A DNA stretch of 64,000 bases, taken from the NCBI GenBank assembly GCA_015063165.1, contig SUSZ01000004.1, forward strand, positions 62,001 through 126,000, given 5' to 3'. This stretch comes from Thermoplasmata archaeon. Its GTDB lineage: Archaea > Thermoplasmatota > Thermoplasmata > Methanomassiliicoccales > Methanomethylophilaceae. A program made the position numbers and the translations under genes. The notes below the pieces were generated by a model. That model was given only the letters and a program-made list of their open reading frames with translations. It searched no databases and was not told the DNA's origin. Each line of letters begins with the position of its first letter. The stretch's first letter is position 1. Below, in pieces: positions 28,614-43,909 of the stretch.

Positions 28614-30266
28614 TCAGGCCCCGAATGATCCGGCGGAAACCCCGTTGGTGAATGCCAGAGCGTTCTTCACCTTGACCGTCACGGACTCGGAATCAGACAG
28701 GTAGTTGCCGGAGCTCGCGGTCAGGGTGAACGTGCACGTCTTCACCCCTCCGCCCGTCGTTATCTCCCCGCTGGGGGCGGTGCACGTGACCTTCTTGGTG
28801 GAGCTGTTCACGCTCGCCTTGAGGCCGTTCGTGGCCCCGCTGCACGAGTACGCCGGGGACGCCCCGGAGGGGTCCGACGAGCACGACGGCGCGAAGGTCA
28901 CGGTCTTCCCTTGTACCACGTACTTCGTGGCCACGGGGGATAGCGACAGCTCCCCGACCGACACGATGTACAGCACGCGGTTGTCGTAGGCGTATCCGTC
29001 CCCGCCGTAGGGGTACGCGACGCTCGGATAGTCTGGCTCTCCCCCGTCGCTGGTTACCACAGGGTCCAGCCCGAGCTCCGGGACGCAGGTGACGCGGCAC
29101 ACGCCCACGGCGGACAGGGTCCCGGAGAGGTCCCCTCCGGACACGGACAGGCCGAACCCCGCGTCGCACTCCCCGACCTGGAACAGCCTGCCGCTGAATG
29201 TCAGATGGGTTATCGAGACGGCGGTCCCGCACTTGACGTACATGATCCTCCCGCAGGCCTTCTCCGCGTCCATGGACAGGGAGGCCAGCGGGCTGGTCGG
29301 GGTGCCGTTGTTCAGGACCACGATGGCGCAGCTTATCGGGCTGGTGCTGTTGTCGTAGCAGTAGTAGGTCCCGCTCGCGACGGCCGTCCCTTCCTTCGTC
29401 GCCGTCCCCGTGATGTTGAAGCTCGAGTAGGAGAGCCCGAATCCGGAGGTCACGGAGTTCATGCCGTAGCTGTCCGACGGGGTCCCGGGGGTGCCGGTGC
29501 AGGTGATGGACACAGGGGCGCCCAGGGCCACGTAGAACGTCCTGCCGTCCGCGTCCTCCGCTGAGACCGAGAGGCTCGGGAGCGGGGACGCCGGGCTTCC
29601 GTTGTCCAGCACGTGGATGACGCGCGTCGCCGTGGTGCTCCCGTAGCTCACTGTCACGTATATGTCGCCCTCCGAGCTCGTGGTGCCCGTGAGGCTCCCG
29701 CTGGTGACGGAGAGGCCGTGCGGGCTCCCCACCGAGGATATCGTCACGGACCCGCTGCCCGAGACGCTCATGCCTGTTATGGTGCACAGGATCGTGTCCG
29801 TCTCGTCGGTGTGCAGGAAGCACCTCTCTATCGTCACGGTGGCGGTCCCCGTCCTCGTCATCGTCCCAGTGAGGCCGCTGCTTCCGACGCTCAGTCCGTA
29901 CCCGGAGGTAACGCCTATGACTGAGCATTGGACGATCCCGTCGTCCGTGTTGTAGATGTGGACGATGCCCCCCGTCCTCACGTTGACGTAGTACAGCCTC
30001 CCGCCGGCGTCGTCGGCGTTAAGGTACAGCGAGGACGGGACGCTCCCGGAGGCCACGTCGACATGGGCCCCGAGGAGCACGTAGGAATCCTCGAGCTCCA
30101 TGGCGGTGGTCTCCAGGATCGGCAGGGGCGCCGCCCTGGACCCGTGCTCCACGTACTTGATGTACGTCCCCTTGCTTTCCTGGGTGTCGAATATGACCGC
30201 CGCCGACAGCAGCAGTACGGCGGCCAGGATTGCGACCGCCGACGCTTTGGCGATGTTTCCTGCCAT
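28614..30266 (-). CDS. Secreted repeat protein, cluster 1
   Basis: A signal-like N-terminus (IAKASAVAILAAVLLLSAAVI) is followed by about four repeats of the type SPLxSLxxxAEDAxGRxFYV...GFGLSxxSxxLTGT, then an Ig-like domain. The protein ends in VKVKNALAFTNGVSAGSFGA with no membrane anchor. The same tail type ends the product of 32435-34081. It is cysteine-rich for an exported protein. It is the third gene of a three-gene operon and a counterpart of 37216-38943. It is probably a cell-surface adhesin or sheath component. Confidence 0.7.
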   Translation of the reverse strand: MAGNIAKASAVAILAAVLLLSAAVIFDTQESKGTYIKYVEHGSRAAPLPILETTAMELEDSYVLLGAHVDVASGSVPSSLYLNADDAGGRLYYVNVRTGGIVHIYNTDDGIVQCSVIGVTSGYGLSVGSSGLTGTMTRTGTATVTIERCFLHTDETDTILCTITGMSVSGSGSVTISSVGSPHGLSVTSGSLTGTTSSEGDIYVTVSYGSTTATRVIHVLDNGSPASPLPSLSVSAEDADGRTFYVALGAPVSITCTGTPGTPSDSYGMNSVTSGFGLSYSSFNITGTATKEGTAVASGTYYCYDNSTSPISCAIVVLNNGTPTSPLASLSMDAEKACGRIMYVKCGTAVSITHLTFSGRLFQVGECDAGFGLSVSGGDLSGTLSAVGVCRVTCVPELGLDPVVTSDGGEPDYPSVAYPYGGDGYAYDNRVLYIVSVGELSLSPVATKYVVQGKTVTFAPSCSSDPSGASPAYSCSGATNGLKASVNSSTKKVTCTAPSGEITTGGGVKTCTFTLTASSGNYLSDSESVTVKVKNALAFTNGVSAGSFGA

Positions 30267-32425
30267 CGCTCCCACCACCAGAAGGTGTTGAAGATCCCGA
30301 GCACGTCGACGGCACCCAGCGCCACCGCAGCCATCCCAACCGGGATAAGCAGAGGGAGGCATCTGAGATAGCCCAGCAGAGCGATGACCATGCCAGCGGC
30401 CATGGCGACCCACGGGACCCAGTCGAACCCCGTATCCTCCTCCCAGACCGTGTAGACGGTGAGCCCCGTGGAGGGTACCTGCACTGTCTCCCCGGGGGTG
30501 TAGTCGGCTGTCTCCGCATCAGGCTCGAGCGACCATCCCCTGAGCCTGTGCCCGGTCTTCGATGGCTCGGCGTCCAGCTTCATGGCGGCCGCGCCGTCGC
30601 TTTCGGTGCGGCTGTTCCTCTCTGCGACCTTCTCCTCACCGTCCATGAACGTCAGAATGTGGTCGTGCAGGGGCGCGGGCTCGGCGCGTACCCTGAACGT
30701 CGCCGTCGCGCCGACGTAGTCCGGAGCGGACGCGTCCACCGAGACCGTGTAGTCCCCGGCCTTCGACGCGGTCAGCGTGAGCCCCCTTCCGGCCGCCGAT
30801 ACGTCGAGCCCTTCGGCGGACGACGCGTCGATCCTGACCGCGGCCCCCTCGGGATCGGAGGATACGGACAGCGGGACAGTCGAGATGGAGCCCACGGTGA
30901 TTGTCATGTCTGCGATTTCCGCTATGGACAACGCCTTCTCCTTCCATATCGCCGTGAGCACGATCTCGCCCTCCGGGACCGTGATGGGGTCGCCCTGGCG
31001 GTACACAGTGCCGTCCGGCCCCTCCCATCCCTGGAGGGCATGGAGCTCTTTGGAGGCGTTCGGCTGCTCGACGCGGGTGTCGATGCTCCCCTGGACCGTG
31101 TTCCTGTCGATCTGCCTGTGGATCTCCTCGGCCCCGTCCTTGTAGACGATTACGTGGTCGTAGGTCGGCTCGGGGCTGACATGTATGCTGACGGATATCG
31201 TGGCGCCGCGGTAGTTGTCCGCGCTCGCGCTGACCGGCAGCACGTAGTCCCCCGGGATCAGTCCGGTGAAGAGGACGTTGCGCCCGTCGACGCTCACGGC
31301 GGACAGACCTTCCGGGACTTCTCCGACGGAATAGGATATCCCGGATGTCGCAGGGTCGGGCGTCGCGCTCACCGTGATCCTCGACGGCTGGTTGGCGTAC
31401 GCGTACACGATCCCTACGGGGTCGAACGAGAGCGTGTTCTCCGCCCAGCGGGCATCCAGGACGATCCCCTCCCTAGGGACCAGGAGCGTGTCGCCTCTCC
31501 CGTAGACGGTCCCGTTCAGCTCCCATCCGAGGAGCGTGTGGTACTGCTTGGACAGCCCCGACGGGGGGTCGAGGACGATCTCGACGGCCCCCTCGACCTC
31601 GCTGGCCATGTTCTGGGTCTTGACGGTCTCGCCCCCGTCCCTGTATGTGACGGCGTGGTCGTATGTCGGCGCGTCCGCCCACTTAGCATGCAGGGTTATG
31701 GGCTCCCTGACCTCGGACGCCCAGTCGTACTCCTCGGTGAGGCCCTCGTCCGTGTACCATCCGGCGAACACGTGGCCGCTCCAGACGGGGTCCTCCGGCC
31801 TCTCGGCCTGGGCGTAGACGTCGGTGTTCTCGACGGTGATCGCGGCCACCTCCGGCCCTCCACCGGTGTCGAAGGTCACCGTGGGGTAGCCCATGACCGC
31901 GAGGACGTACCTCATGATGCTGTAGCTCCCGCGGACCGACTCCTCCTCGGAGCCGGAGGCGAGGCCCCCGTCGTACCCCGTGGAGTCGGTGCTGAAGAAG
32001 CCGTCGTAGGCCATGCCGGACGGGGGGACGTACCCCATCGGGTTGTAGGACTCGATGCTCCAGTTGTACGTCCCGGCATCGGAGTAGCGGTGAACCGGGT
32101 TGACTATGGATCCGCCGTTGGCTTCCAGCAGTTCGTAGTACGCGTCAACCCCGGCCCTCACGTCCTGTGTGACCTCCTCCCCGGCGTTGACCAGCTGCGC
32201 GTAGGCCTCCCAGCGGCCGTCCAGGACCGTCCCGTCGCCGAAGTCCCACCTGAGGTACTGGTAGTCCGTGGAGGTGTTGAAGAACTTGATCGTGTAGCGG
32301 TAGTACGTCGCGTCAGGCTCCTGCCCGCCGTCCCCGGCCCCGTCCGCGGAAGCGAGCGGGAGGAGGGCGAGCAGGGCGACAAGAGCGCACGCGGATACCG
32401 CCAGAACCGTACTCTTGGCGCCCAT
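29978..32425 (-). CDS. PKD and InlB-type repeat surface protein with two C-terminal membrane helices
   Basis: Order: signal peptide (1-27), PKD-like domain with WDFGDGTVLDG near residue 60, a Listeria-Bacteroides repeat (FAGWYTDEG, near 225), alternating YDHxVxYxDG repeats and Ig-like domains, and two membrane helices (VPWVAMAAGMVIALLGY and LLIPVGMAAVALGAV). The natural end is near FNTFWWWER at the next start (30266), but the codon there is TGG instead of TGA, so the frame runs 290 bases on. It is the presumed membrane-anchored partner of the two tail-bearing proteins of this operon. The counterpart in cluster 2 is 36539-37219. Confidence 0.7.
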   Translation of the reverse strand: MGAKSTVLAVSACALVALLALLPLASADGAGDGGQEPDATYYRYTIKFFNTSTDYQYLRWDFGDGTVLDGRWEAYAQLVNAGEEVTQDVRAGVDAYYELLEANGGSIVNPVHRYSDAGTYNWSIESYNPMGYVPPSGMAYDGFFSTDSTGYDGGLASGSEEESVRGSYSIMRYVLAVMGYPTVTFDTGGGPEVAAITVENTDVYAQAERPEDPVWSGHVFAGWYTDEGLTEEYDWASEVREPITLHAKWADAPTYDHAVTYRDGGETVKTQNMASEVEGAVEIVLDPPSGLSKQYHTLLGWELNGTVYGRGDTLLVPREGIVLDARWAENTLSFDPVGIVYAYANQPSRITVSATPDPATSGISYSVGEVPEGLSAVSVDGRNVLFTGLIPGDYVLPVSASADNYRGATISVSIHVSPEPTYDHVIVYKDGAEEIHRQIDRNTVQGSIDTRVEQPNASKELHALQGWEGPDGTVYRQGDPITVPEGEIVLTAIWKEKALSIAEIADMTITVGSISTVPLSVSSDPEGAAVRIDASSAEGLDVSAAGRGLTLTASKAGDYTVSVDASAPDYVGATATFRVRAEPAPLHDHILTFMDGEEKVAERNSRTESDGAAAMKLDAEPSKTGHRLRGWSLEPDAETADYTPGETVQVPSTGLTVYTVWEEDTGFDWVPWVAMAAGMVIALLGYLRCLPLLIPVGMAAVALGAVDVLGIFNTFWWWERWQETSPKRRRSQSWPPYCCCRRRSYSTPRKARGRTSSTWSTGPGRRPCRSWRPPPWSSRIPTCSSGPMSTWPPGASRPRCTLTPTTPAGGCTTST

Positions 32426-32434
32426 TTACTCGCC

Positions 32435-34081
32435 TCAGGCGGTTATGGCACCGGCGGCGGTGGTGTTGGTGAACGCCAGCGCGTTCTTCACGACGACGTT
32501 GAGGGTCGCCGTGGCGGTGTTGGTGCTGTTGTTGGCGTCCACGATCTTTACGGTCACGGTGTAGGTTCCGGGCGTCGACAAGGCGGTGGATCCTGGAGAC
32601 ACCACCCCCGCGGTCGACACGGCGATGTTCTTGTTGGTGATGCCCGTGCCGTAGGAGGCGATCGAGAAGGTCGCGTCGGAGCCCAGGTTGGACGCGATGG
32701 TGAGGCTGTCGTAGACCTTGTTGGTGGCCATGTAGAACGTGCTGTCCAGGGTCCCGTTCGTGGCGCCGGTGAAGGAGGCCTGCTCCCTGACGTAGAGGGT
32801 CAGGGTCTTGGTGGCGCTGTTGCTGGACGCCTTCGACCCGGTGGCGCCGGACGTGGTGGTCGTTGTCTTCGCGGACGCCAGCTTGACCGCTATCGTGTAG
32901 GTTCCGGCGGATGTGTCGGCGGAGCTAGTGACGACCCCGTTGCTTATGGTGATGGAGTTGAAGTCCGTCCCCGAGGTGATGGCGGTCCCGTCCTTCTTGA
33001 TCGAGGTGATGCTCCATTTGGCGTCGGAGGGGCCCGCGCTCTTGGTGAACGTGTGCGTGTCGGAGTGGCCGACGTAGCTGTACGCGGTGGTTCCCCCGCC
33101 GATCGCCACCTTGTCCTCGACGACGACGGTGACGGTCCTGGTCGCGGACGACCCTCCGGTGGCCGCCGTGGCGGTGTACTTCTGGGTGAAGACGTAGGTC
33201 GCAGCCGCGGACGGGGTGCCGGTGATCTTCCCGGTGCTAGCCTCGATGGTCATGCCGTTGTAGGCCGTCCCGATGGAGAAGCCGCTGTCGGCCGTGTTGT
33301 CCTTCTTGACGGTGGTGGTCATGGACGCGAGCGAGGTGCCGGTGGGCATGGCGACGCCGGGGACGGTGATCGCGGTGTTGCCGGTCATCGCGTACACGGT
33401 GTAGTTGGACGCGGTGATGCTGGTGTAGGCCCCGATGGATATGGTCTTGGTGACCGTCTGTACGGGGGAGGTGTTCAGGGTGGCCGTGATGGTGTAGTTC
33501 GCCTGGGCCTTGTAGGCGGTCGGGGTTCCGGATACGACTCCGGTGGAGGTGTTGAAGGTCAGCCCGGTCGGCAGGGTCCCCGATATGGAGTAGGACGTCG
33601 CCGCAACTCCTCCCCCGATGGTGGGGGTGACGCTCGTGATTGCGGTCCCGACCTTGGCCACGATGCTGTCCGCGCTGTAGCTGAGGGAGAACGTGGCTAC
33701 GTTGAAGGTGATCTCGTAGTACACCGTCTGGCTGGGCTGCGTTGTAACGGCCTTGACCTTGACGTAGTAGCTGGTCTTGGAGTAGCTGCTGGGCAGCGTC
33801 ACGACGATCTTTCCGCTCTGAACCTTCGCGTTCCCGGACGTTGCCGAGAAGGTCGCGGTGTCGGCGGGCATCGAGGTGTCGCTCCCCGACACGGTGAGCG
33901 TCGGGGTCAGCCCCGTGGGGAAGGTGGGCGTCCAGGACCAGGTCTGGCCCGGCTGTATGTTCACCGTGCCTCCCGCGTTCGCCGCGTCCGACTCGTGGGC
34001 CAGGGCGGGGGCCGTGGCGACGCAGAGCATCAGGACGGCCGCGACCGCGGCGAACCATTTCATGCTGTGATTCGAATCCAT
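32435..34081 (-). CDS. Secreted Ig-like (He_PIG) surface protein, cluster 1
   Basis: A signal peptide (about 1-29) precedes the PGQTWSWTPTF and SFSLSY blocks and a putative Ig domain (LPTGLTFNTSTGVVSGTP). Several threonine- and serine-rich Ig-like domains follow. The protein ends VVVKNALAFTNTTAAGAITA without a membrane segment. It is first in the minus-strand operon and matches the cluster 2 gene at 35280-36542 over its N-terminal 200 residues. It is probably exported and retained at the surface, possibly through the C-terminal tail. Confidence 0.7.
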   Translation of the reverse strand: MDSNHSMKWFAAVAAVLMLCVATAPALAHESDAANAGGTVNIQPGQTWSWTPTFPTGLTPTLTVSGSDTSMPADTATFSATSGNAKVQSGKIVVTLPSSYSKTSYYVKVKAVTTQPSQTVYYEITFNVATFSLSYSADSIVAKVGTAITSVTPTIGGGVAATSYSISGTLPTGLTFNTSTGVVSGTPTAYKAQANYTITATLNTSPVQTVTKTISIGAYTSITASNYTVYAMTGNTAITVPGVAMPTGTSLASMTTTVKKDNTADSGFSIGTAYNGMTIEASTGKITGTPSAAATYVFTQKYTATAATGGSSATRTVTVVVEDKVAIGGGTTAYSYVGHSDTHTFTKSAGPSDAKWSITSIKKDGTAITSGTDFNSITISNGVVTSSADTSAGTYTIAVKLASAKTTTTTSGATGSKASSNSATKTLTLYVREQASFTGATNGTLDSTFYMATNKVYDSLTIASNLGSDATFSIASYGTGITNKNIAVSTAGVVSPGSTALSTPGTYTVTVKIVDANNSTNTATATLNVVVKNALAFTNTTAAGAITA

Positions 34082-34477
34082 GTCATCATCTCCGCCGGGT
34101 TGAGGGCCCCGGCATGCCGCGAGAAAAGAGTGGCCGCCCAAGCGCACGTATGCGGGCGGCAGGGGCCGTGCGAGGTATCGTCCAGATGAGGCCGGTGCCT
34201 TGCGCGCGTCCCATGGCACGGTGCACGCGCTCCGGCCTCTTGAAACTCGGAAAATGTGCATCGAGGCATGCGGATGGTGCCGTGAACGCGTGTCACATCG
34301 TTATCGTCCGTCGATGGCGCGACGGGTTCCACGTTTTCGGAGATTCATAACCCCCCTTGGCCTTCCGCATGGCATGGAACGTCCCTGCGGCTATCGCTTC
34401 ACGGCCTTCAGCGGCAGAGGAGGTTCCATGGTGGCCGCCACGGACCAAACGTCGTTCCTGCATCGGGAGGGATACTC
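34082..34477. other. Divergent promoter region between the two surface clusters
   Basis: About 400 bases separate the starts of the two oppositely oriented surface-protein operons. No gene is supported. A plus-strand frame ending at 34481 is not protein-like. No TATA box can be named with confidence. Confidence 0.45.
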
Positions 34478-35275
34478 CTGAAGACCCTGACGGCGGCCAT
34501 CGTCCTTCCGGTCATCTTCCTGGCGGCCTTCGGGGCGTCTCTGGCATCCCTCCTTCCGGTCGACCATTCCAAGGCGGCGTCGCAGGCGGAATCCGTGATC
34601 GAGCCGGGATGCGTCTACGCATGGCGCTGCCCCGACGCGGGCGGAATCATCTCTTCATGCGCGTTCGTAGGCCTGGACATCACGGAGGATGAGTTCGAGG
34701 GGTCGATGTCGGACCGCATCCTGCGCAAGGGGATCTTGACGTCCCCTGCTCCAGTCTCGTTCGTAGACCCCGCCGACAGGCATGTGGCCCAGGTCGCGGA
34801 GCAGATCTGCAGCGAGACGTCGGGATACGGGGATCGCGCGAGGGCGCTGGCCGCGCTGTGGTTCGTGCAGACTGCGATACAGTACGCCTCGGATGCGGAC
34901 CTGTACGGCGAGGACGAGTTCTGGGCCCGCCCGTTGGAGACCCTCTACTGCCACAAGGGGGACTGCGAGGACACGTCCGTTCTCCTCTGCTCCATACTCC
35001 TGGCCATGGGGTTCGACGCCGTCCTCCTGGACTACCCGGGGCACGTGGCCGTCGGGGTGTGCCTGGAGGGGGCGGAGGGGACGTCCTATCCCTACGGCGG
35101 GAAGAGCTACTTCCTCTGCGAGACCGCGCGGGACGACACGTGCCCGATAGGCCAGGGGTGCAGGGCCCTCGATACCCCGGACATATACCGCCCGGGAGGG
35201 GAGGGGAGCCTCCCGGAGGCGCTCGTGTCCGGGCTCAGGCTCCTCGTCTGGGGGATTTTCGGTTTTCGAGTGTGA
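34478..35275 (+). CDS. Exported transglutaminase-like cysteine enzyme
   Basis: The domain carries the transglutaminase/cysteine-protease core with C163 in KGDCEDTS and H189 in YPGHVAV. An uncleaved anchor or signal helix (LKTLTAAIVLPVIFLAAF) lies before the first ATG (34595). The gene therefore probably starts at the CTG at 34478, which has GGAGG seven bases upstream. It leads the cluster 2 operon and ends four bases before the next gene. It could crosslink, cleave or attach the surface proteins encoded downstream. The third catalytic residue is not certain. Confidence 0.7.
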   Translation: MKTLTAAIVLPVIFLAAFGASLASLLPVDHSKAASQAESVIEPGCVYAWRCPDAGGIISSCAFVGLDITEDEFEGSMSDRILRKGILTSPAPVSFVDPADRHVAQVAEQICSETSGYGDRARALAALWFVQTAIQYASDADLYGEDEFWARPLETLYCHKGDCEDTSVLLCSILLAMGFDAVLLDYPGHVAVGVCLEGAEGTSYPYGGKSYFLCETARDDTCPIGQGCRALDTPDIYRPGGEGSLPEALVSGLRLLVWGIFGFRV

Positions 35276-35279
35276 TATC

Positions 35280-36542
35280 ATGTTCTATGGATCAAGAATC
35301 AAGGCGGGCATGCCCGTCCTCATGGCCGTCCTGGTGCTGGCGGCCTCCGCGGTGCCTCTGGCGTCGTCCCAAGGGGCCGATGCCGAGTTCGTGGGAACCT
35401 GCACCATCGACTTGCAGCCGGGGCAGACCTGGACCTGGGAGCCGACCTTCAACCTAGACAAGGAGGTGGCGCTGGAGGTCTCCGCGGGCCAGGATTCGAT
35501 GCCGGGGAGCGGATCGGCGTTCTCGTCCTCGTCGGGGTACGCCCAGGTGGCCGGCGGGAAGGTGTCCGTGGCGCTGCCGTCCGGATACGCCAAGCCCCAC
35601 TACTATCTCAGCATAAGGGGCACCTCGACGCAGCCCACACAGTTCGCTTACTATCAGGTGACGTTCGACGTGTCGTCGTTCTCCCTGTCCTACCCCTCTG
35701 ATAGCCTGAACGCGGTGGTCGGAACCCCTGTGGAGTTCGCCCCGGCCCTGTCGTCCACCAACGGCGACGTGTCCGCCAAGTCGTTCTCGATCAGCAGGGC
35801 GCTCCCGCCAGGTCTGGCTTTCGACTCCTCTACGGGGAAGATAAGCGGGGCCGCCACGTCGGCCAGGGCGGCCGCATCGTACACCGTCACCGCCACGCTG
35901 GACATGTCCCCCGAGCAGACCGTCAGGACCACCATAACCATCGGCGCGGCGGAGCCCCAGGAGGAGACGTGCACCGTGACGTTCAGGGCCTCGCCGCCCG
36001 GGTACGGGACGGTGTCGGAATCTTCCATCGTGTTCCCCAAGGGCGCGGCGGTCTCCGTCCTCACCGACGGAAGCCTGTGCATAAACGGCCGCTGCGTCAC
36101 GGCGACGCCTTCCGCCCCCACCTCCCAGTACACCTACTCCTTCATCGGATGGTCCAAGACCTCCGGAACCATCGAGTCGGACACCGAGATAACAGCAAGC
36201 TTCTCCAGGTCGTCCGCGCAGAGCGAGCTGAAGGTGACGGTATCTGACGATCACCAGTACGCCGTTAAGGGAACACCCGCATCCTTCGGATTCATCGTCA
36301 CGCCCTCCGACCAGCCGGCGACAGTCACCGCTTCGTCGTCGTCCCAGAGCCTGACCGCAACCGTCAACGGGGACAGGGTATCGTTCACGGCCTCCTCGTC
36401 CGGGGACTTCACCATAACGATCGTCGCGTCCGCCGACGGGCACACATCAGGTAGCACTATAGTCTATATCCACGTGGACGACGTGCTCAGGTTCGTCAAC
36501 GAGCCCGTCGCCTCCTGCAGGATATCGGGGGCGAACCGATGA
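35280..36542 (+). CDS. Secreted Ig-like (He_PIG) surface protein, cluster 2
   Basis: A signal peptide is followed by PGQTWTWEPTF, YYQVTFDVSSFSLSY and an Ig domain (LPPGLAFDSSTGKISG) that parallel the cluster 1 protein at 32435-34081. A CTVTFRASPPGYG block comes next, then a cadherin-like end. The C-terminus is VDDVLRFVNEPVASCRISGANR. The last 75 bases are nearly identical to the end of 37216-38943. The stop overlaps the next start (CGATGA). Confidence 0.75.
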   Translation: MFYGSRIKAGMPVLMAVLVLAASAVPLASSQGADAEFVGTCTIDLQPGQTWTWEPTFNLDKEVALEVSAGQDSMPGSGSAFSSSSGYAQVAGGKVSVALPSGYAKPHYYLSIRGTSTQPTQFAYYQVTFDVSSFSLSYPSDSLNAVVGTPVEFAPALSSTNGDVSAKSFSISRALPPGLAFDSSTGKISGAATSARAAASYTVTATLDMSPEQTVRTTITIGAAEPQEETCTVTFRASPPGYGTVSESSIVFPKGAAVSVLTDGSLCINGRCVTATPSAPTSQYTYSFIGWSKTSGTIESDTEITASFSRSSAQSELKVTVSDDHQYAVKGTPASFGFIVTPSDQPATVTASSSSQSLTATVNGDRVSFTASSSGDFTITIVASADGHTSGSTIVYIHVDDVLRFVNEPVASCRISGANR

Positions 36543-37219
36543 GGGGAGCGCTGGCCGTCATGGTCGCGGCTTCCATCCTCGTCCTCACAGCCCTCGTCCC
36601 GCTGTCGTCCGACTCCGACGCGTCCGAGGCGCAGAGCTTCGACACGCTGAGGATCAGGTTCGACAACACGAGCAGCAGCTCCCTCTACGTCATCTGGGAC
36701 TTCGGGGACGGGACGGTCCTCGACGGGAGATGGGAGCGCTATGCCGGGGACACGTCCCTCCTCACCAGCGACCAGAAGGCGATGCTGGCCGAGTACCAGT
36801 CCATACTGTCCGCGCACGGAGGGGACATCGACCATCCCGTACACGAATACGCCGAGGCCGGGACTTACGCCACGTCCGTGACCGCGATCAACCCCATAGG
36901 ATGGGTGGACGCCGGCGGGCACGAGTACACGGCGGAGAACAGCATAGACTACTCCTCATTCGACGGTGGGCTCTTCTCGACGTCGACGGCGAAGTCGGCC
37001 AGGGGCTCCTGGGACGTGAGCCAGAACACGATAACCGTCTCTGGGAGCGCATCCGGCTGGACCGACTGGCTGCCGTTCATCATAATCGCCACAGGGGCGA
37101 TAGTCGCCGCCGTCGGCATGAGATATCACCCGGCCATCATGGCCGCCGGGATCGCCGTTGCCGTGATGGGGGCGCTCTGCCTCCTTGGCGTCGTCGACCT
37201 GAGGGGGATGCTGAAATGA
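36539..37219 (+). CDS. PKD-domain protein with two C-terminal membrane helices
   Basis: The 226-residue product has a signal peptide, a PKD-like domain (WDFGDGTVLDGRWERY) and two membrane helices (WLPFIIIATGAIVAAVGM, IMAAGIAVAVMGALCLLGV). It is a compact version of the long cluster 1 protein at 29978-32425, sharing the first domain and the helical end but without the repeats between them. It is coupled at both ends by four-base overlaps. Likely a membrane-anchored partner. Confidence 0.75.
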   Translation: MRGALAVMVAASILVLTALVPLSSDSDASEAQSFDTLRIRFDNTSSSSLYVIWDFGDGTVLDGRWERYAGDTSLLTSDQKAMLAEYQSILSAHGGDIDHPVHEYAEAGTYATSVTAINPIGWVDAGGHEYTAENSIDYSSFDGGLFSTSTAKSARGSWDVSQNTITVSGSASGWTDWLPFIIIATGAIVAAVGMRYHPAIMAAGIAVAVMGALCLLGVVDLRGMLK

Positions 37220-38943
37220 GCAGCAGATCCTTCTCCTTGCTGGCCATATTCATGATCCTGGCGTCGGCCCTGTGCGTCCCTTCAGGCATGCCATGCGCGG
37301 ATGCCGACATCGACAAGGGGACGGCGTCCAGCCCCCTGAAATCCCTGAGGACCGACACCCCGACGGCCGCCAACGAGACCTTCTGCGTGATGTACGGAGG
37401 CGCTGTGGAGGTCTCCGAAGCCGAAGGGCTGGAGGTCACGGGGTGCACCCTGGGATTCGGGCTGGCCGTGAAGGACGGCGGCCTCTCGGGGACCCTCAGA
37501 GGGGTCGGGACGGTCAGGGTGGAGCTCTTCAACGCCGACTCGAACGAGAACCTGGCATTCTGGATCCACTCGATCCTCTACACCGGGGCCGCCGACGATC
37601 CCCTGGATTCTCTGTCCTGCGAGGCCGAGGAATCCGCGGGGAAGACGTTCTACGTCAGGACGGGCGGCCACGTAGGCATCGGGATGTCCAACGCCGAGAA
37701 CGTGTCGATCACGCCCTCCGGCTGCGGGCTGTTCCTGTCGGGGACCAAAGTGGAGGGTTCGGTGTCGGGAACGTCAACGATCACGATTTCCGGGAACGGG
37801 TACTTCGAGCCCCTCTCTGGAGACGGGTTCAGCATAACCATAGTCCCCGTGGCGAGCGGACAGGGGGCCGGGATCCAGACCGGCAGCCAGGACGAGCCGC
37901 TCGACTCGCTCTCGGTCAACGCCGACGACGCCGCAGGCAGGACCTTCTACGTCAGGGTAGGCGGCAGCGTGTCCGTGACAGACATCTCCGACGACAGCGT
38001 GTCGTTCACGGTGGAATCCGTGTCCCCCACGGACTGCGGCCTCTCTGTGAGCAGCACCGGCCTCAGCGGGACCCTCTCCAGGGCCTGCACCATCGACGCG
38101 AACGGGAACGCCGACATCGGAGGGAACTTCGGGACGCTGCATTTCACCATCATTGCAGTGGGCTCGGAATCCCCCAGCACGTTCGCCCATACGATCGAGT
38201 ACTACGACCGCGGGGAGCTCGTCGGGACGCAGACCGAGAGCGGCGTCCAGCCCTACATGATGGTCACGATATCCCAGGCGGAGCCGGCGAGGTCCGGATG
38301 GACGTTCACTGGCTGGAGCGCGTCGCAGAGCGGGAGCGCTAACGGCTGGAAGAACGGGAGCAGGGTCGACGTCGGCCCCACGCCTCTGAAGGTCTACGCC
38401 TCCTGGGGAAGGACGGTCACCTACGACGCCAACGGAGGGTCGCTGGAAGGGGGCGCGAGCGCGGTCATCCTGGAAGGCAAGACCCTGACCCTAAGGGCCG
38501 ACGCCTACAGGGACGGCTACAGCTTCGACGGATGGTACGACGCGAGAGACGGGGGAAGCCTGGTGCAGAGCCCGCTGTCCCCTCCGGGGGACATTGTGCT
38601 GTACGCCCATTGGACGAAGGCGCCCGACACGGCACTGGCCGTCGCCGCTCCTCCGGACGTCTACGCGGTAGTCGGCGAGAGGGCCTGTTTCGACGTGTCC
38701 GTGTCGCCGCCGGCGCAGGGCGTTGAGTTCAACGTGGCCGCGCCGGGATCGTGGTCCCCGGCGGTTGACGGGAGCACCGTGTCGTTCACCCCGACGGCTT
38801 CCGGGATGCAGGTAATGACCGTGACGGCCTCCGCCGACGGGTATTCATCAGGGATCGCCGTGATTAAGGTCCACGTCGACGACGTCCTCAGGTTCGTGAA
38901 CGAGCCCGTCGCGTCCTGCAGGATAACGGGGGCGAGCCGATGA
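37216..38943 (+). CDS. Secreted repeat protein, cluster 2
   Basis: A signal peptide is followed by three SPLxSL/DPLxSL...FYVRxGG repeats like those of the cluster 1 protein at 28614-30266, two Listeria-Bacteroides repeats (FTGWSASQ, FDGWYDAR) and a cadherin-like domain. The end is VDDVLRFVNEPVASCRITGASR, almost the same as the protein two genes upstream. There is no anchor helix. A longer frame upstream of 37216 is a shadow of the PKD gene. Confidence 0.75.
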   Translation: MSSRSFSLLAIFMILASALCVPSGMPCADADIDKGTASSPLKSLRTDTPTAANETFCVMYGGAVEVSEAEGLEVTGCTLGFGLAVKDGGLSGTLRGVGTVRVELFNADSNENLAFWIHSILYTGAADDPLDSLSCEAEESAGKTFYVRTGGHVGIGMSNAENVSITPSGCGLFLSGTKVEGSVSGTSTITISGNGYFEPLSGDGFSITIVPVASGQGAGIQTGSQDEPLDSLSVNADDAAGRTFYVRVGGSVSVTDISDDSVSFTVESVSPTDCGLSVSSTGLSGTLSRACTIDANGNADIGGNFGTLHFTIIAVGSESPSTFAHTIEYYDRGELVGTQTESGVQPYMMVTISQAEPARSGWTFTGWSASQSGSANGWKNGSRVDVGPTPLKVYASWGRTVTYDANGGSLEGGASAVILEGKTLTLRADAYRDGYSFDGWYDARDGGSLVQSPLSPPGDIVLYAHWTKAPDTALAVAAPPDVYAVVGERACFDVSVSPPAQGVEFNVAAPGSWSPAVDGSTVSFTPTASGMQVMTVTASADGYSSGIAVIKVHVDDVLRFVNEPVASCRITGASR

Positions 38944-41786
38944 GGACGGATCTTCTGCCCATGGCGGCCCTGGGGCTCGTCTGCCTGGCCGCTTCGGTCC
39001 TGCTCTCGCCGATAGCCATGCTGGTCCTTGCCGCGCTGGTCTTCGTGATCGGCTACTGCACGGCCAGCCCGCAGCTGGAGCGCATAGGGGTGGTCATGGG
39101 CGTGGTGGCCGCCGCGGTCCTCGTCCTGACTGTCGTAGGGGTTCTGGCGTTCCTTGCCGGGACCTCGCTCAGCACCGCGGGGGCGGCCCGAATGGCGATC
39201 CCTTCTCCCTTCGGAGCGCAGCGAAGAGCGGGGGCTGATGATTTGAGATATGCAGCCATAGCGCTCCTGGCGCTCGCCATAGCTCTCGCGTCTTCGATGG
39301 CGCTGGCCGCCTCCGACCAGTCGGACGCCTACGCGTACGGGTCCGGAAGCGTCGGAGCGAAGGACGTGACCTTCGATCCCGACGGCGGGAGCGGAGGATA
39401 TACTCAGAAGGTGCTCAGCGGTAACCGCTTCTATTTCCCGACCGAGCATCAGACCGCCGGGCTCACGAGCTCGGAGTACGAGCCTATACGCAAGGAGGGG
39501 CACGTCCTCTCAGGGTGGATGGGCGAGGACGGGGGCATACACGCCCCTGGATCCCTGTCGCTTCCGGTCACGTCCGATGTGACCTACATCGCTGTCTGGG
39601 AATCGGCGATGTACGGATCAGACGGCCGGTACGAGAATCCCCGCTGCGAGGTCCAGAGGGGCTCCCCGCTGTCTTACAGCACCGAGTCCAGCGACGGAAC
39701 CGGCCCGGGGGGACACGACTCCGTGTACTGGGCCTTCCTGACGGCCTACGACCAGGGCAGCTCGGAGATCCTCGGCATAAGCGTCACCGGGCCGAACGGC
39801 TACAGCGTGTCGAAGTCCCGGGTCTCACTGTACACCGACCGGCCGGACAACCTGATAGGCGAGGGGCTGAGGGTCGGGTACTTCACCGTGAATTTCGCCT
39901 GGGACGGATGCGTGGTCGAGGTCTCGGGATCCCCGCCGGACGCGGGCCTGTACAGGCTGAGGTTCACCGCCGGCGACGTCGAGGGGACGCTGTTCGTCTC
40001 CGTAGTGGATCCGGAGACCGACCCGTCCAACCTCTACCATGCGAGCTACGGGCAGAACGGATACGACTACGACCGCTTCGGCCCCTACGGCACTGCCGTG
40101 GACCTCCCCGGCGGCTCCGACCGCATCGAGAGGCTCAAGGGATGGTCCATAAGGGTGGACGGATCGGACGCGGTGTTCCCGCTAGGGGGCAGCTACACCC
40201 TCGTGAAGAAGGTGGTTGTCCTCCAGCCAGCGAGATACGGGTATTCGGAGGTCCAGGGATGCGTCGGGATCGTGGCGTTCAACGCCATGGGCGGGACGTA
40301 CTCCGGGGCGCTGGCCGTCAAGGTCGACCGGAAGGGCTACGTCCCGCTGATGCCCGACGGCGAGGTGTCCAAGGACGGGCACGTCCTCATAGGGTGGAAC
40401 CTCACGGGGTCCGCAGCCGACACCGTATACCCGGCCGGATACCTCTTCGACGCCGTCGGGGAGTACACCGAGCTCAAGGCCGTCTGGGTCGGGTCCGCAG
40501 ATATGGCGGACGTGACGTTCTCCCACCCGTCGCTCAGCCCACAGAGCGCGTTCAGGATGGCGGAGGGATACGAGTACGCCGTCCCCGTCCACGGGTTCGA
40601 CGTACCGGGATACGCGCTATCCGGATGGTCCGCGGCGAGGCACGAGGTGGGCGACGGGACGGCGGAGATACACGGCAAGGTCGAGGTCTCCGGAGTCGCG
40701 ACCTACTACTCGGTGTACAGGCCGGAGGAGCGCACCTTTACGATAATCTACGCCCCGAACGGCGCTCCAGGGGCCGATGTAGTCAGGGAATACACCAGCA
40801 CCACCGGTGTCGCCACTCTGGAGCCGTGCCCGTTCGCGTACGAGGGGCATGCCTTCGCAGGCTGGTCCGAGTCGGCGCACTCCGAGTCGGCACAGTACGC
40901 TCCCGGGTACCAGTACGGCTTCGGCAGCGACCCGGAGGTGACGATGTACGCCGTCTGGACGGAGGATCCCGGATCGGAGGACAACGTGTTCACTATAGTC
41001 TTCCTGGCCACCGGCGCGGACTACAACCCGATGGTCCCGCTGGCATGGGCCGGGAAGGACGGAGGCCATACATTCGTCGTTCCGTCGGTGCAGCCGGAGC
41101 GCAGAGGGTTTGACTTCGTTGGCTGGTCCTCGGACCCGTCCGCGGCGTTCTCGATGCCGGAGTACTCGGCCGGGAAGGCGGTCACGTTGGAGCTGGGAGA
41201 GGGGGAGACCTCGGAGACGCTGACACTGTACGCGGTGTGGTCGCAGCCCCATGGCGGAGGCGAGGGGAGCCATACCGTGACGTTCAAGAAGGGGTCCACC
41301 ACGGTCTACGAGACGTCCGTCGGGGACGGCGGCAGGGTATCCTGGATAGACGTGAGCTCTGACGACGGCGAGGCCCTGGCCGGATGGTTCACCGACTCGG
41401 GCAGGAGATGGGACTTCTCCGCCGACGCGGTCACATCCGACCTCGTGCTCAAGGCGAGGTTCGTGAGGCTCTTCCACCTGGAGGTGGGGGAGGACTGGGT
41501 GAAGGTCGTCCTGGACCGGGCCTGCAAGGACCTCTCCATAACGTATCCGGACGGGAAGACTGAAAGAGAGGTAGCAAGGCACGACATCCCCGAAGGCTCT
41601 GAGGGGATGGTCTCAGTGACCGGGACCCTGGAGAACTACGGGACCGTCACCGCGATACACCGCTACAAGGCCCTGGACGAGGACGATGCGGTCGGCGGGG
41701 ACGGCGGCGACGCGGCGCTGTACCTCATCGCGGGAGCGGCCGCCTGCGCAGTGGCCCTCCTTGTGGCAGCGAGGCGGTACCTGTGA
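38940..41786 (+). CDS. Large InlB-type repeat surface protein with membrane anchors
   Basis: The 948-residue product starts with membrane helices (about 5-75) resembling the helical end of the PKD proteins. A second signal-like segment follows (LRYAAIALLALAIALASSMAL, about 102-122), which suggests an old gene fusion. About six Listeria-Bacteroides-type repeats follow, each ending in a GW... and AVW pair, then a C-terminal anchor (LYLIAGAAACAVALLVAARRYL). It is probably displayed on the cell surface. It overlaps both neighbours by four bases. Confidence 0.7.
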   Translation: MRTDLLPMAALGLVCLAASVLLSPIAMLVLAALVFVIGYCTASPQLERIGVVMGVVAAAVLVLTVVGVLAFLAGTSLSTAGAARMAIPSPFGAQRRAGADDLRYAAIALLALAIALASSMALAASDQSDAYAYGSGSVGAKDVTFDPDGGSGGYTQKVLSGNRFYFPTEHQTAGLTSSEYEPIRKEGHVLSGWMGEDGGIHAPGSLSLPVTSDVTYIAVWESAMYGSDGRYENPRCEVQRGSPLSYSTESSDGTGPGGHDSVYWAFLTAYDQGSSEILGISVTGPNGYSVSKSRVSLYTDRPDNLIGEGLRVGYFTVNFAWDGCVVEVSGSPPDAGLYRLRFTAGDVEGTLFVSVVDPETDPSNLYHASYGQNGYDYDRFGPYGTAVDLPGGSDRIERLKGWSIRVDGSDAVFPLGGSYTLVKKVVVLQPARYGYSEVQGCVGIVAFNAMGGTYSGALAVKVDRKGYVPLMPDGEVSKDGHVLIGWNLTGSAADTVYPAGYLFDAVGEYTELKAVWVGSADMADVTFSHPSLSPQSAFRMAEGYEYAVPVHGFDVPGYALSGWSAARHEVGDGTAEIHGKVEVSGVATYYSVYRPEERTFTIIYAPNGAPGADVVREYTSTTGVATLEPCPFAYEGHAFAGWSESAHSESAQYAPGYQYGFGSDPEVTMYAVWTEDPGSEDNVFTIVFLATGADYNPMVPLAWAGKDGGHTFVVPSVQPERRGFDFVGWSSDPSAAFSMPEYSAGKAVTLELGEGETSETLTLYAVWSQPHGGGEGSHTVTFKKGSTTVYETSVGDGGRVSWIDVSSDDGEALAGWFTDSGRRWDFSADAVTSDLVLKARFVRLFHLEVGEDWVKVVLDRACKDLSITYPDGKTEREVARHDIPEGSEGMVSVTGTLENYGTVTAIHRYKALDEDDAVGGDGGDAALYLIAGAAACAVALLVAARRYL

Positions 41787-43909
41787 AGGGGCAAAAGGCG
41801 GCGGCCCTAGCCGCTATGACCATAGTGTTACTCGTCCCGTTCGCGGGCGTTTGCGCACTGGACGAGGACGACGAGACCGACGCCGTGGCGCCGATAATCG
41901 CCCTTGCTCTCGGAGCGTCCGAGGGGATACCCGCCGCGGTGTCCGTCGTCAAGTGGGGCCTGGCCCTGATGGGCCTGAGCGCGGCGGCGGGGTTCTCGGC
42001 CGGGGCGTTCGTCGCATACGAGCTGATGGACTCCCAGGATCCGAGCGTGCACCCGTACCTCCGCCTGATGGCGGCCAGGGCCCTCTCGGAGTCCATGGAC
42101 ACAGCCGTGAAGTTCTCGTCGAACGCCAACGCCAACTACGCCCAGGTGTGGGCCGCCACCAAGGAGCACTGGGTCAGGCAGGCCGAGCTGGAGGCGTACG
42201 CCGAATGGGGCCCGGACGCGGACTACGACGCCGACAGGATCCTCGAGCGCTCCCAGCTGTACCGCAACGCGGCCGTGATGAGCGCCAACGCGGTCGCCCA
42301 GGTCAACCTCTTCCTCGATGCCCAGGCGGAGAGGACGGAGGGATGGGAGTCCAAGGACGCCTACTCGGGGCTCATGGGCATCTCGTTCCGCGCCGGCGGA
42401 AGGGAGATGTCCTCATCAGACGGAGATTGGAGGGCGGAGCTCCTGTCCGTGGCCGACGTCGGGAACGGTCCGGGGCGCGTGTACATCGGCCTGGTCCAGG
42501 GGGACGACGTCCTGTCGGCGGACGGATACGAGCCGTCCCGCCTGATCGCGCTCGATGACCGCACGACGATCTCCGGTGAGGGGATGTCCTTCGTCCTGAA
42601 GAAGGGGGAGAACATGCTCTCCGAGCTGAGGACGTCGTCGGGGCAGGCGTTCAAGCCGGGGATATACCGCCTGTCAGGAACGGTCGCCGGGGACACGCTC
42701 GCCGAGGTGACGGGGCCCAGTGCGCTCGAGCTGCGCCCCGGGATGGCGATAAGGACCGGCGGGAGCCTGTTCCTGGCGCATCTGGACGGCTCGGGCAGCG
42801 TGATCCTGAACGGGGCCTCCTACGGATCCCTGTCGTTCAAGGTGACCCCTGGTTCGACCCCGTCCGGGCCGGACACCGAGAAGCCGGAACCCGTGGACCT
42901 GAAGGGGATGATGGAGTCCTACGGCGCGCTCCTCAGGACGATGGGGTGGACCGCCGCGTCCGCCGAGAGGTCCGCAAGGGCCGTTTGGGATGTGTACTGC
43001 GAGTGCGCCTCCAAGGAGTACTCGGTGACGACCCTCATGGCACCGGACGCCTACGACGGGTACGTCCTGGGAGCGGGGATGAAGGAGGCCATGACGCTCT
43101 CCTCCATGCAGCAGCTGGCAGCCTACTACCAGGAACATTCCGGAGACCTCGGAGGGCTCTACATCGGGCTCTACGGGTCGGGGGACGTCCCGAGCTCCTT
43201 CTTCGTCAGGGGGTCGGTGACCGACGGCCTGGGCCGCACGCTGTACGAGGACGCCGTCTACACACCCTTCTTCCAGTCGGAGAACGAGACCCTGAAGGAC
43301 GGGTCGGACCACCGGATAGGCCAGAACGCGCTGGTCATGGTCTGGGGGAGGGCGGACGGGCTGACCCTGCCACAATGGTACGAGAAGGCCTCCTCGGAAG
43401 GCGTCGTCCACTACGAGACCGCGTTCGCGGAGAGGGGCTGGACACTGGGGATATCGGAGCTGGCCGAATGCGACGGGGGCGGGATGCATCCGAAGGACGC
43501 CGTCTCCCTGAAGGTGACGCAGGTGAGCTTCGTCGACCCTGAGAAGACAAGGACGTACGGGGACCCGGACCCGCAACAGAAGGGGACCAACTGGCTACTC
43601 CTCGCCTGCCTTGCCCTGGGGATCGTCCTGGCCGCTTATGGGATCGTCCGCAGGGAGCCGGTCTACATCGTCGCGGGGGCTGCGGTCATGATCGCCGGGC
43701 TCTTGCTGGGGGACGCCGCCTGGGGCTGGATCTCCGGATGGAAAGGGTCCTGGGGGCTTCTCCGATGGCGACGGGGCGGTGATGGCCGATGGACATGGCA
43801 GAGGCCGAGGGAATGCTGTCAGCTCTGGAGGGCTTCGTCGAGCGGGTCTCCCCGATCGCCGAGGCGGCTGCGAGGAACTGGCTGCCGCTGGCCCTCTCCG
43901 GCGAGATAG
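41783..43909 (+). CDS. Large membrane-anchored surface protein, frame lacks its natural stop
   Basis: The GTG at 41783 overlaps the previous stop. A signal peptide, a helical region (about 30-180), beta-rich domains (about 190-350), a helical domain and a further beta-rich region lead to two C-terminal membrane helices (LLLACLALGIVLAAYGI, VAGAAVMIAGLLLG). At the next start (43789) the codon is TGG instead of a stop, and the frame continues 40 codons as a shadow. Function unknown; surface location is inferred. Confidence 0.6.
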   Translation: MKGQKAAALAAMTIVLLVPFAGVCALDEDDETDAVAPIIALALGASEGIPAAVSVVKWGLALMGLSAAAGFSAGAFVAYELMDSQDPSVHPYLRLMAARALSESMDTAVKFSSNANANYAQVWAATKEHWVRQAELEAYAEWGPDADYDADRILERSQLYRNAAVMSANAVAQVNLFLDAQAERTEGWESKDAYSGLMGISFRAGGREMSSSDGDWRAELLSVADVGNGPGRVYIGLVQGDDVLSADGYEPSRLIALDDRTTISGEGMSFVLKKGENMLSELRTSSGQAFKPGIYRLSGTVAGDTLAEVTGPSALELRPGMAIRTGGSLFLAHLDGSGSVILNGASYGSLSFKVTPGSTPSGPDTEKPEPVDLKGMMESYGALLRTMGWTAASAERSARAVWDVYCECASKEYSVTTLMAPDAYDGYVLGAGMKEAMTLSSMQQLAAYYQEHSGDLGGLYIGLYGSGDVPSSFFVRGSVTDGLGRTLYEDAVYTPFFQSENETLKDGSDHRIGQNALVMVWGRADGLTLPQWYEKASSEGVVHYETAFAERGWTLGISELAECDGGGMHPKDAVSLKVTQVSFVDPEKTRTYGDPDPQQKGTNWLLLACLALGIVLAAYGIVRREPVYIVAGAAVMIAGLLLGDAAWGWISGWKGSWGLLRWRRGGDGRWTWQRPRECCQLWRASSSGSPRSPRRLRGTGCRWPSPAR

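Follow-up and report, generated by a model that had tools for sequence, protein, structure and literature searches.

C-terminal tails of anchorless secreted proteins match the missing first strand of a neighbouring membrane-bound PKD protein in gut and rumen archaea, suggesting attachment through a split domain

In methane-producing archaea of the gut and rumen (Methanomassiliicoccales), secreted surface proteins that lack a membrane anchor end in a short tail that matches the missing first strand of a PKD domain on a neighbouring membrane protein. This suggests that these proteins are held on the cell by completing the split domain. That the domain is split between genes is well supported, while docking of the tail is inferred.

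Two head-to-head clusters share gene order and cluster-specific tails

The window, a stretch of 64,000 nucleotides of a Thermoplasmata archaeon (GCA_015063165.1, contig SUSZ01000004.1), contains two head-to-head clusters, each encoding an anchorless Ig protein, a PKD protein with a two-helix membrane hairpin and an anchorless repeat protein. The original prediction had described two divergent clusters of the same gene order, in which the anchorless proteins carry tails that match better within than between clusters and are not followed by a membrane segment; this observation was confirmed.

Cluster 1 lies on the minus strand. Its first anchorless protein (donor 1, 32435-34081) contains a He_PIG domain (32.8 bits, above the cut-off), a signal peptide and no membrane anchor, the only hydrophobic stretch being residues 6-29. 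It ends in the tail KNALAFTNTTAAGAITA (32438-32488, minus strand), which is short and lacks the usual proline. The PKD protein (acceptor, 30260-32425) comprises a signal peptide, a PKD core at the mature N-terminus (PKD 19.7 bits, below the cut-off of 23.5), Flg_new repeats and a two-helix hairpin (residues 669-712), and is 44% identical to its cluster 2 counterpart. As a correction, its reading frame has no stop after the second helix and stays open to 29978, about 290 bases into the next gene. The second anchorless protein (donor 2, 28614-30266), a secreted repeat/Ig protein, ends in KNALAFTNGVSAGSFGA (28617-28667, minus strand).

Cluster 2 lies on the plus strand and is headed by a transglutaminase-like cysteine peptidase gene (about 34472-35275) with an N-terminal helix and the motif GDCEDT...GH; no ATG, GTG or TTG start is present upstream of 34595. 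The corresponding Pfam matches all remained below their curated cut-offs (Transglut_core 22.1 versus 23, Peptidase_C93 22.4 versus 27, CEPT76_peptidase 27.6 versus 27.8 bits), although the GDCEDT cysteine and a histidine are present in the sequence. Donor 1 (35280-36542; He_PIG 34.2 bits) is 36% identical to its cluster 1 counterpart and ends in VDDVLRFVNEPVASCRISGANR (36474-36539). The acceptor (36539-37219), which overlaps donor 1 by the four bases ATGA, consists of a signal peptide, a PKD core and a two-helix hairpin (residues 176-225). Its PKD match of 30.9 bits exceeds the cut-off of 23.5, but covers only profile positions 25-74 of 80. Donor 2 (37216-38943), a secreted Flg_new repeat protein (68.4 bits), ends in VDDVLRFVNEPVASCRITGASR (38875-38940), with the C-terminal residues RITGASR. 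Two accessory membrane proteins follow, a Flg_new protein with a C-terminal helix (38940-41786) and a protein with a two-helix hairpin near the C-terminus (41783-43909), both with orthologues in a relative, genome G018 (G numbers denote genomes included in the comparison).

In all four anchorless proteins the signal peptide is the only hydrophobic stretch and no hydrophobic segment follows the tail. The tail starts after the last Ig-type domain, as weak Pfam matches end at residue 539 of 556 and 592 of 608. Within the two clusters the tails are 62% and 88% identical, while the preceding domains share 23% and 41%. Over 12 cluster pairs, the last 16 residues are 56-88% identical compared to 23-41% for the 90 residues before, and a permutation of partners over 11 two-donor clusters gave p of about 1e-4. 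Recent DNA copying does not explain this in general, since 63 of 142 shared residues use different codons, although the cluster 2 pair, with identical codons for 13 of 15 shared residues, may be partly a recent copy. Conservation forced by overlap with the start of the next gene may act on the donor next to the acceptor, but donors whose tail does not overlap another start carry the same motif.

The tail corresponds to the first strand of a contiguous PKD domain in relatives

In some relatives (G015, G016, G020, G023 and G052) the same motif, LxFTSxPTxxxxIxAV, runs straight into a PKD domain within one chain; in G052 one such protein, of another family, carries the same kind of two-helix hairpin. 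A profile of the contiguous proteins (alignment A13) matches the donor tails over columns 2-26, up to their last columns (hhalign Prob 91.4, E 9.1e-7), and the acceptors over columns 41-93 (Prob 98.3, E 1.2e-14). The acceptors begin right after the signal peptide and lack this first strand, which is carried by the anchorless proteins. In agreement with this, the AlphaFold2 secondary structure of the cluster 1 acceptor shows strands B to G of the PKD core (31895-32299, minus strand) and no strand A in its own N-terminus. The acceptor thus does not contain the complete PKD fold in one chain, and by the hhalign match the partner carries a free terminal strand equivalent to the missing one.

To further evaluate the match, the tails were placed in front of the acceptors and scored with a family-specific PKD profile. 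The score increased by a mean of 4.1 bits, compared to -0.46 for shuffled tails and -0.39 for internal pieces, and the sum of 120 bits compares with a maximum of 2.7 in 10,000 resamples. With an order-wide PKD profile no gain was observed, so that the match rests on the family-specific contiguous set. The window's own tails score weakly on their own, only one of four clearly exceeding its shuffles, and the tails of G034 and RumEn M1 show no gain either. Two AlphaFold2 runs on the cluster 1 read-through chain did not dock the tail (pLDDT about 32-36), with only 10 sequences in the alignment, a signal peptide between the halves and the short, proline-free cluster 1 tail; in the first run the orphaned last Ig strand was predicted as a strand instead. 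Foldseek with the first model gave only weak PKD hits (best E 0.04). Joint alignment of donors and acceptors was not meaningful, because MAFFT lays the donor Ig domains onto the PKD domain, and separate alignments were used.

Tails and acceptors co-occur, are neighbours and diverge together

Across 147 genomes of the order, tails were found in 25 and strand-less PKD proteins in 26, with both present in 21 (Fisher p 5e-17), mostly as neighbours and with one to three donors per acceptor. In the first 60 genomes, tail hits sit beside such a partner in 31 of 32 cases, and adjacency was also seen in held-out genomes. In a table compiled by hand, split acceptors have donors beside them in 20 of 21 clusters, contiguous ones in 0 of 5 (p 9e-5). 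Tail and acceptor similarity correlate with r = 0.93 in a mirror-tree comparison, and with a partial correlation of 0.76 when the donor body is controlled for. There are exceptions: one tail without an acceptor (cluster G027:C1), orphan acceptors (UBA421/G127 and G132), and loci in G018 and G003 where a PKD protein with its own upstream tail motif stands beside an extra tail protein. A search of genome contigs for loci related to the cluster 2 PKD protein returned nothing, whereas the family alignment succeeded; viral contigs hold no close relative, and Pfam and PHROGs searches of genes flanking the mobile-looking clusters found nothing of use.

The transglutaminase-like protein is not a general part of the system. 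It heads only the subtype of the window (window cluster 2, G018 and G123), was not seen beside the other split clusters examined, and such genes are common across the order (58 of 60 genomes).

Discussion

Taken together, we favour, with moderate confidence, a model in which each cluster encodes one PKD domain split over separate genes. The acceptor holds strands B to G right after its signal peptide together with a membrane anchor, a two-helix hairpin in the window, while each donor holds strand A plus its lead-in (LxFxNxPxxGxI..) as its C-terminal tail. After secretion, the tail would most likely pair along the open edge of the acceptor PKD, completing the domain and fixing the protein to the membrane without lipid, sortase or a helix of its own. 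The analysis shows that tail and partner correspond to the two halves of one contiguous domain in relatives, that they are neighbours and that they diverge together; physical strand complementation, anchoring of the donors at the surface, and the use of one kind of acceptor by two or three different donors are inferences from these data.

The original prediction proposed a sorting or assembly system, including the transglutaminase-like enzyme, in which the tail is recognised by the cluster's own membrane partner. This interpretation is partly supported: the pairing with the cluster's own PKD/membrane partner holds, but the tail does not look like a sorting signal for an enzyme and the role of the transglutaminase-like protein is weakened. 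The alternative set beforehand as a refutation, that the tails are just the last strand of a common Ig domain found without these partners, does not apply, since the tail lies beyond the last domain and is rarely found without the partner.

Other explanations appear less likely. A linear sorting or ligation signal, recognised by a membrane enzyme or the transglutaminase-like protein, would fit a short conserved C-terminal motif on secreted proteins and the enzyme gene heading the window's subtype. However, the tails have no helix or basic end as in PGF-CTERM or LPXTG tails, the enzyme is missing from most split clusters examined and common elsewhere, the tail aligns with the lead-in and first strand of a PKD domain, and no enzyme domain was found in the partner, a PKD repeat protein. 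Similarly unlikely is that the tail completes a strand of another protein, for example another donor, so that donors form pilus-like chains with the PKD protein only as base. Several donors per acceptor (RumEn M1, UBA370) and the existence of donor-strand filaments in archaea (PMC9715654) would allow this, but on inspection no donor was seen to begin with an incomplete PKD domain, and tail similarity follows the acceptor rather than the donor bodies.

The contiguous forms and the gene junctions overlapping by a few bases could also indicate that the tail is a functionless relic of former Ig-PKD-membrane chains. We consider this improbable, as tails are more conserved than the domains before them, often with different codons, are present on two or three different donors per cluster and track the acceptor. 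Least likely is that the tail represents the start of a Flg_new repeat or a generic linker. Some tails (LTFDSNPTGG) resemble the first strand of Flg_new (VTFDSNGG), where MAFFT aligned them, but the resemblance holds for only part of the tails, and hhalign matches them to the PKD lead-in of contiguous proteins.

A more far-reaching possibility, which we regard as somewhat less likely than not, is a natural plug-and-socket system on archaeal cells. One kind of membrane-anchored, incomplete PKD domain would display two or three different secreted adhesin-like proteins, each by a 16-residue C-terminal strand, with pairings specific to each cluster so that several systems could work side by side in one cell (three in this genome, four in G003). 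How secreted proteins without anchors stay on the surface of gut archaea is largely open. A split PKD domain would give a testable answer, would let otherwise unannotated anchorless proteins be assigned to their membrane partner by the tail alone, and would be a natural counterpart of engineered peptide-tag docking. Literature searches on PKD with donor-strand complementation, on PKD in Methanomethylophilaceae and on split PKD domains in archaea found nothing, within an open collection that covers few subscription journals.

Among known systems, the PKD domains of ColG/ColH collagenase and of the Methanosarcina surface-layer protein 1l0q align with the acceptor core from WDFGDG to the last strand, but carry their own first strand in the same chain. 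Archaeosortase/PGF-CTERM substrates also have a conserved C-terminal motif on secreted archaeal proteins, whereas here no transmembrane helix or basic end follows the motif and the proteins stop at the tail. In chaperone-usher pili (FimA/FimC type) an incomplete Ig fold is likewise completed by a strand from a partner, but the donor strand is N-terminal and a periplasmic chaperone and usher are involved; no such genes were seen among the neighbouring genes scanned. TasA/TapA fibres use a donor strand between secreted subunits (PMC9674648; PMC9715654), but are polymers of one protein in bacteria. In the archaeal threads of Sulfolobus acidocaldarius (Saci_0406), an incomplete Ig-like fold at an archaeal surface is complemented by a terminal strand of another subunit (PMC9715654). 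Threads are chains of one protein with an N-terminal donor strand, while in the model proposed here different secreted proteins carry a C-terminal donor for one kind of membrane-anchored PKD acceptor, which would extend strand complementation from single-protein filaments to the display of several different proteins on one kind of anchor.

Genomic context and the two clusters

The window lies in a 2.28 Mb draft genome whose relatives are Methanomassiliicoccales, rumen and gut methanogens, the named records being Candidatus Methanomethylophilaceae RGIG6046 from sheep omasum, UBA71, UBA370, UBA593, UBA381, UBA421 and RumEn M1. Two clusters point away from each other from about 34.3 kb. Each encodes an anchorless He_PIG protein, a PKD protein ending in two helices, and an anchorless repeat protein; the anchorless proteins are here called donors and the PKD protein the acceptor, according to their proposed roles. 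Counterparts are 36%, 44% and 30% identical between the clusters, respectively, so they are old paralogues. The C-terminal tails of the donors read as originally described, and the observation of two clusters with cluster-specific tails is confirmed. Within a cluster the last 16 residues are 62% (cluster 1) and 88% (cluster 2) identical, while the 90 residues before are 23% and 41% identical.

Some irregularities were seen in the reading frames. The PKD frame of cluster 1 has no stop after its second helix and runs about 290 bases into the repeat gene (29978-30290), whereas it stops there in cluster 2 and in the related genome G018 (G-numbers denote the genomes searched), indicating a lost stop or an assembly error. 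The transglutaminase-like gene upstream of cluster 2 has no ATG, GTG or TTG upstream of 34595, although its membrane helix is encoded there (34472-34595); the start ATG of the G018 gene lines up with an ATA. The Flg_new protein beginning at 38940 has about 130 extra N-terminal residues with several helices (38940-39320) compared with its G018 orthologue.

Recurrence in related genomes

Searching 60 relatives with the PKD protein, the He_PIG protein and profiles of the PKD core and the tail showed the same arrangement in many species, in varying gene order. G018 has a transglutaminase, a donor, an acceptor and a donor, followed by the same two accessory genes as cluster 2 of the window. G003 has four clusters, and G000 has a third at contig C12. 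The arrangement is also found in other genera, namely in G034, G035, UBA370, UBA593 and RumEn M1, the last three with three donors around one acceptor. Examples of the tails are VLDFANAPSVGIIGE and VLAFTNAPSIGVIGS in G018, GLEPTNSPTNGVIIYVTG and ELAPTNAPSNGLIIYVSG in G034, and QLVFTSAPTGGAIIYAV and ALTFDSNPTGGAIIYAV in G003.

Several loci depart from this arrangement. G014 has two acceptors side by side with a single donor (locus L066, 7215-9608), and an orphan acceptor of 292 residues without any donor beside it occurs in UBA421/G127 and G132 (loci L078, 7917-8795, and L315, 6768-7646). In a further form, a PKD-membrane protein has its motif (FTSVPTAACVVIPVYTY) separated from its PKD core by a long insert and stands next to a second protein ending in the same long motif (loci L041, 5277-9236, and L280, 2846-6904). 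A cluster in G003 and a related locus in G018 lie near genes resembling HUH-type replication proteins (HSPHFH) and, in G018, a Zot-like ATPase (loci L042, 1-1760, and L041, 1-2108). These resemblances, judged by eye, suggest plasmid- or virus-derived elements, but Pfam and PHROGs gave no hit. In G027 a tail gene is broken at a run of G (locus L274, 774-1647), which possibly reflects phase variation or a sequencing error.

Co-occurrence of tails and acceptors

In the 60 genomes, 32 strong tail hits (E below 1e-9) were found, of which 31, counted by hand, have an acceptor within about 5 kb; the exception is contig C1 of G027. As these profiles were trained on clusters found through the PKD protein, the extension to 147 genomes of the order is the better test. 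Here, tails were found in 25 genomes, acceptors in 26, and both in 21 (Fisher p 5e-17, although the genomes are related and the value overstates their independence). In held-out genomes, cases that first lacked a partner often proved to have one on inspection: G123 (transglutaminase, donor, acceptor, donor), G127, G069, G092 and G120. G063 is contiguous, while G098, G081 and G083 remained unresolved, G098 and G081 at contig ends. Split acceptors have donors in 20 of 21 clusters, contiguous ones in 0 of 5 (p 9e-5). The underlying table was drawn up by hand, counts one weak donor (UBA381, second cluster) as present, and leaves out the long-linker forms in G018 and G003, where a PKD protein with its own upstream motif stands next to an extra tail protein.

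Correspondence of the tail to the start of a PKD domain

In G015, G016, G020 and G023, the tail motif is followed in the same chain by a PKD domain, as in LVFTSVPTANAQITAVLGTSSLYYFDATDSDGRYQVHWDFGDG. G052, a genome of another family, has LVFTSEPTIHNIETTVDGRTITAHAVAENYSNIIWDMGDG followed by a two-helix hairpin of the same kind. A profile of seven such contiguous proteins aligns its columns 2-26 to the donor tails (Prob 91.4, E 9.1e-7) and its columns 41-93 to the acceptors (Prob 98.3, E 1.2e-14). With a profile of 11 contiguous PKD segments of the family, the tail adds 4.1 bits on average to the PKD score of the acceptors, while shuffled or internal pieces do not.

The tails also show shared constraint. 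Partners' tails resemble each other more than tails of the same role in other clusters (0.64 against 0.40; permutation p about 1e-4), and of 142 identical residues in 12 pairs, 63 use different codons. Over 14 clusters, tail similarity tracks acceptor similarity with r 0.93, and 0.76 after removing the donor body; with 8 non-redundant clusters the values are 0.74 and 0.51. Shared ancestry inflates such figures, but the donor body adds little once the tail is known (0.11).

To examine the predicted structure, AlphaFold2 was run on the read-through chain of cluster 1, with both stops read as residues. The models give a confident PKD core with strands B, C, E, F and G and no strand A from its own N-terminus. 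The tail was not docked in either of two runs, which relied on 10 sequences, a signal peptide as linker and one of the weakest tails of the family; if anything, this outcome is slightly negative. In the first run the last Ig strand, deprived of its own domain, was predicted as a strand, which would fit an open edge but was not specific.

Interpretation

Taken together, the system is real and recurrent. The original prediction that the tail is recognised by the cluster's own membrane partner, with a transglutaminase-like enzyme as part of a sorting or assembly system, is partly supported: its central idea survives in a more exact form, in which the tail corresponds to the missing strand of that partner. 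The analysis itself establishes the correspondence of the two halves to one contiguous domain, their adjacency and their shared constraint; the split of the domain is well supported. That the tail, after export, adds to the open edge of the acceptor PKD domain and thereby ties the donor to the membrane is, in contrast, inferred. In this view, two or three donors per acceptor gene would mean either several copies of the acceptor, each carrying a different donor, or exchange. Overlapping start and stop codons, ATGA in cluster 2, would favour joint translation. The transglutaminase-like gene upstream of cluster 2 has orthologues heading the G018 and G123 clusters and is hence a conserved part of this subtype, perhaps for cross-linking or trimming. 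However, it is not needed for the tail-acceptor pairing elsewhere, and its family is found in 58 of 60 genomes.

Comparison with known proteins

Adhesion proteins with Listeria-Bacteroides repeats are a known feature of this order (PMC7883539). In standard PKD domains, the place equivalent to the tail, P-x-A-x-f before the WDFGDG strand, is the first strand, an assignment that rests on the sequences compared and on general background on the fold. The acceptors put WDFGDG at residue 53-76, right behind the signal peptide, and have no such piece. A sequence search against solved structures places the acceptor on the collagenase and surface-layer PKD domains from strand B or later.
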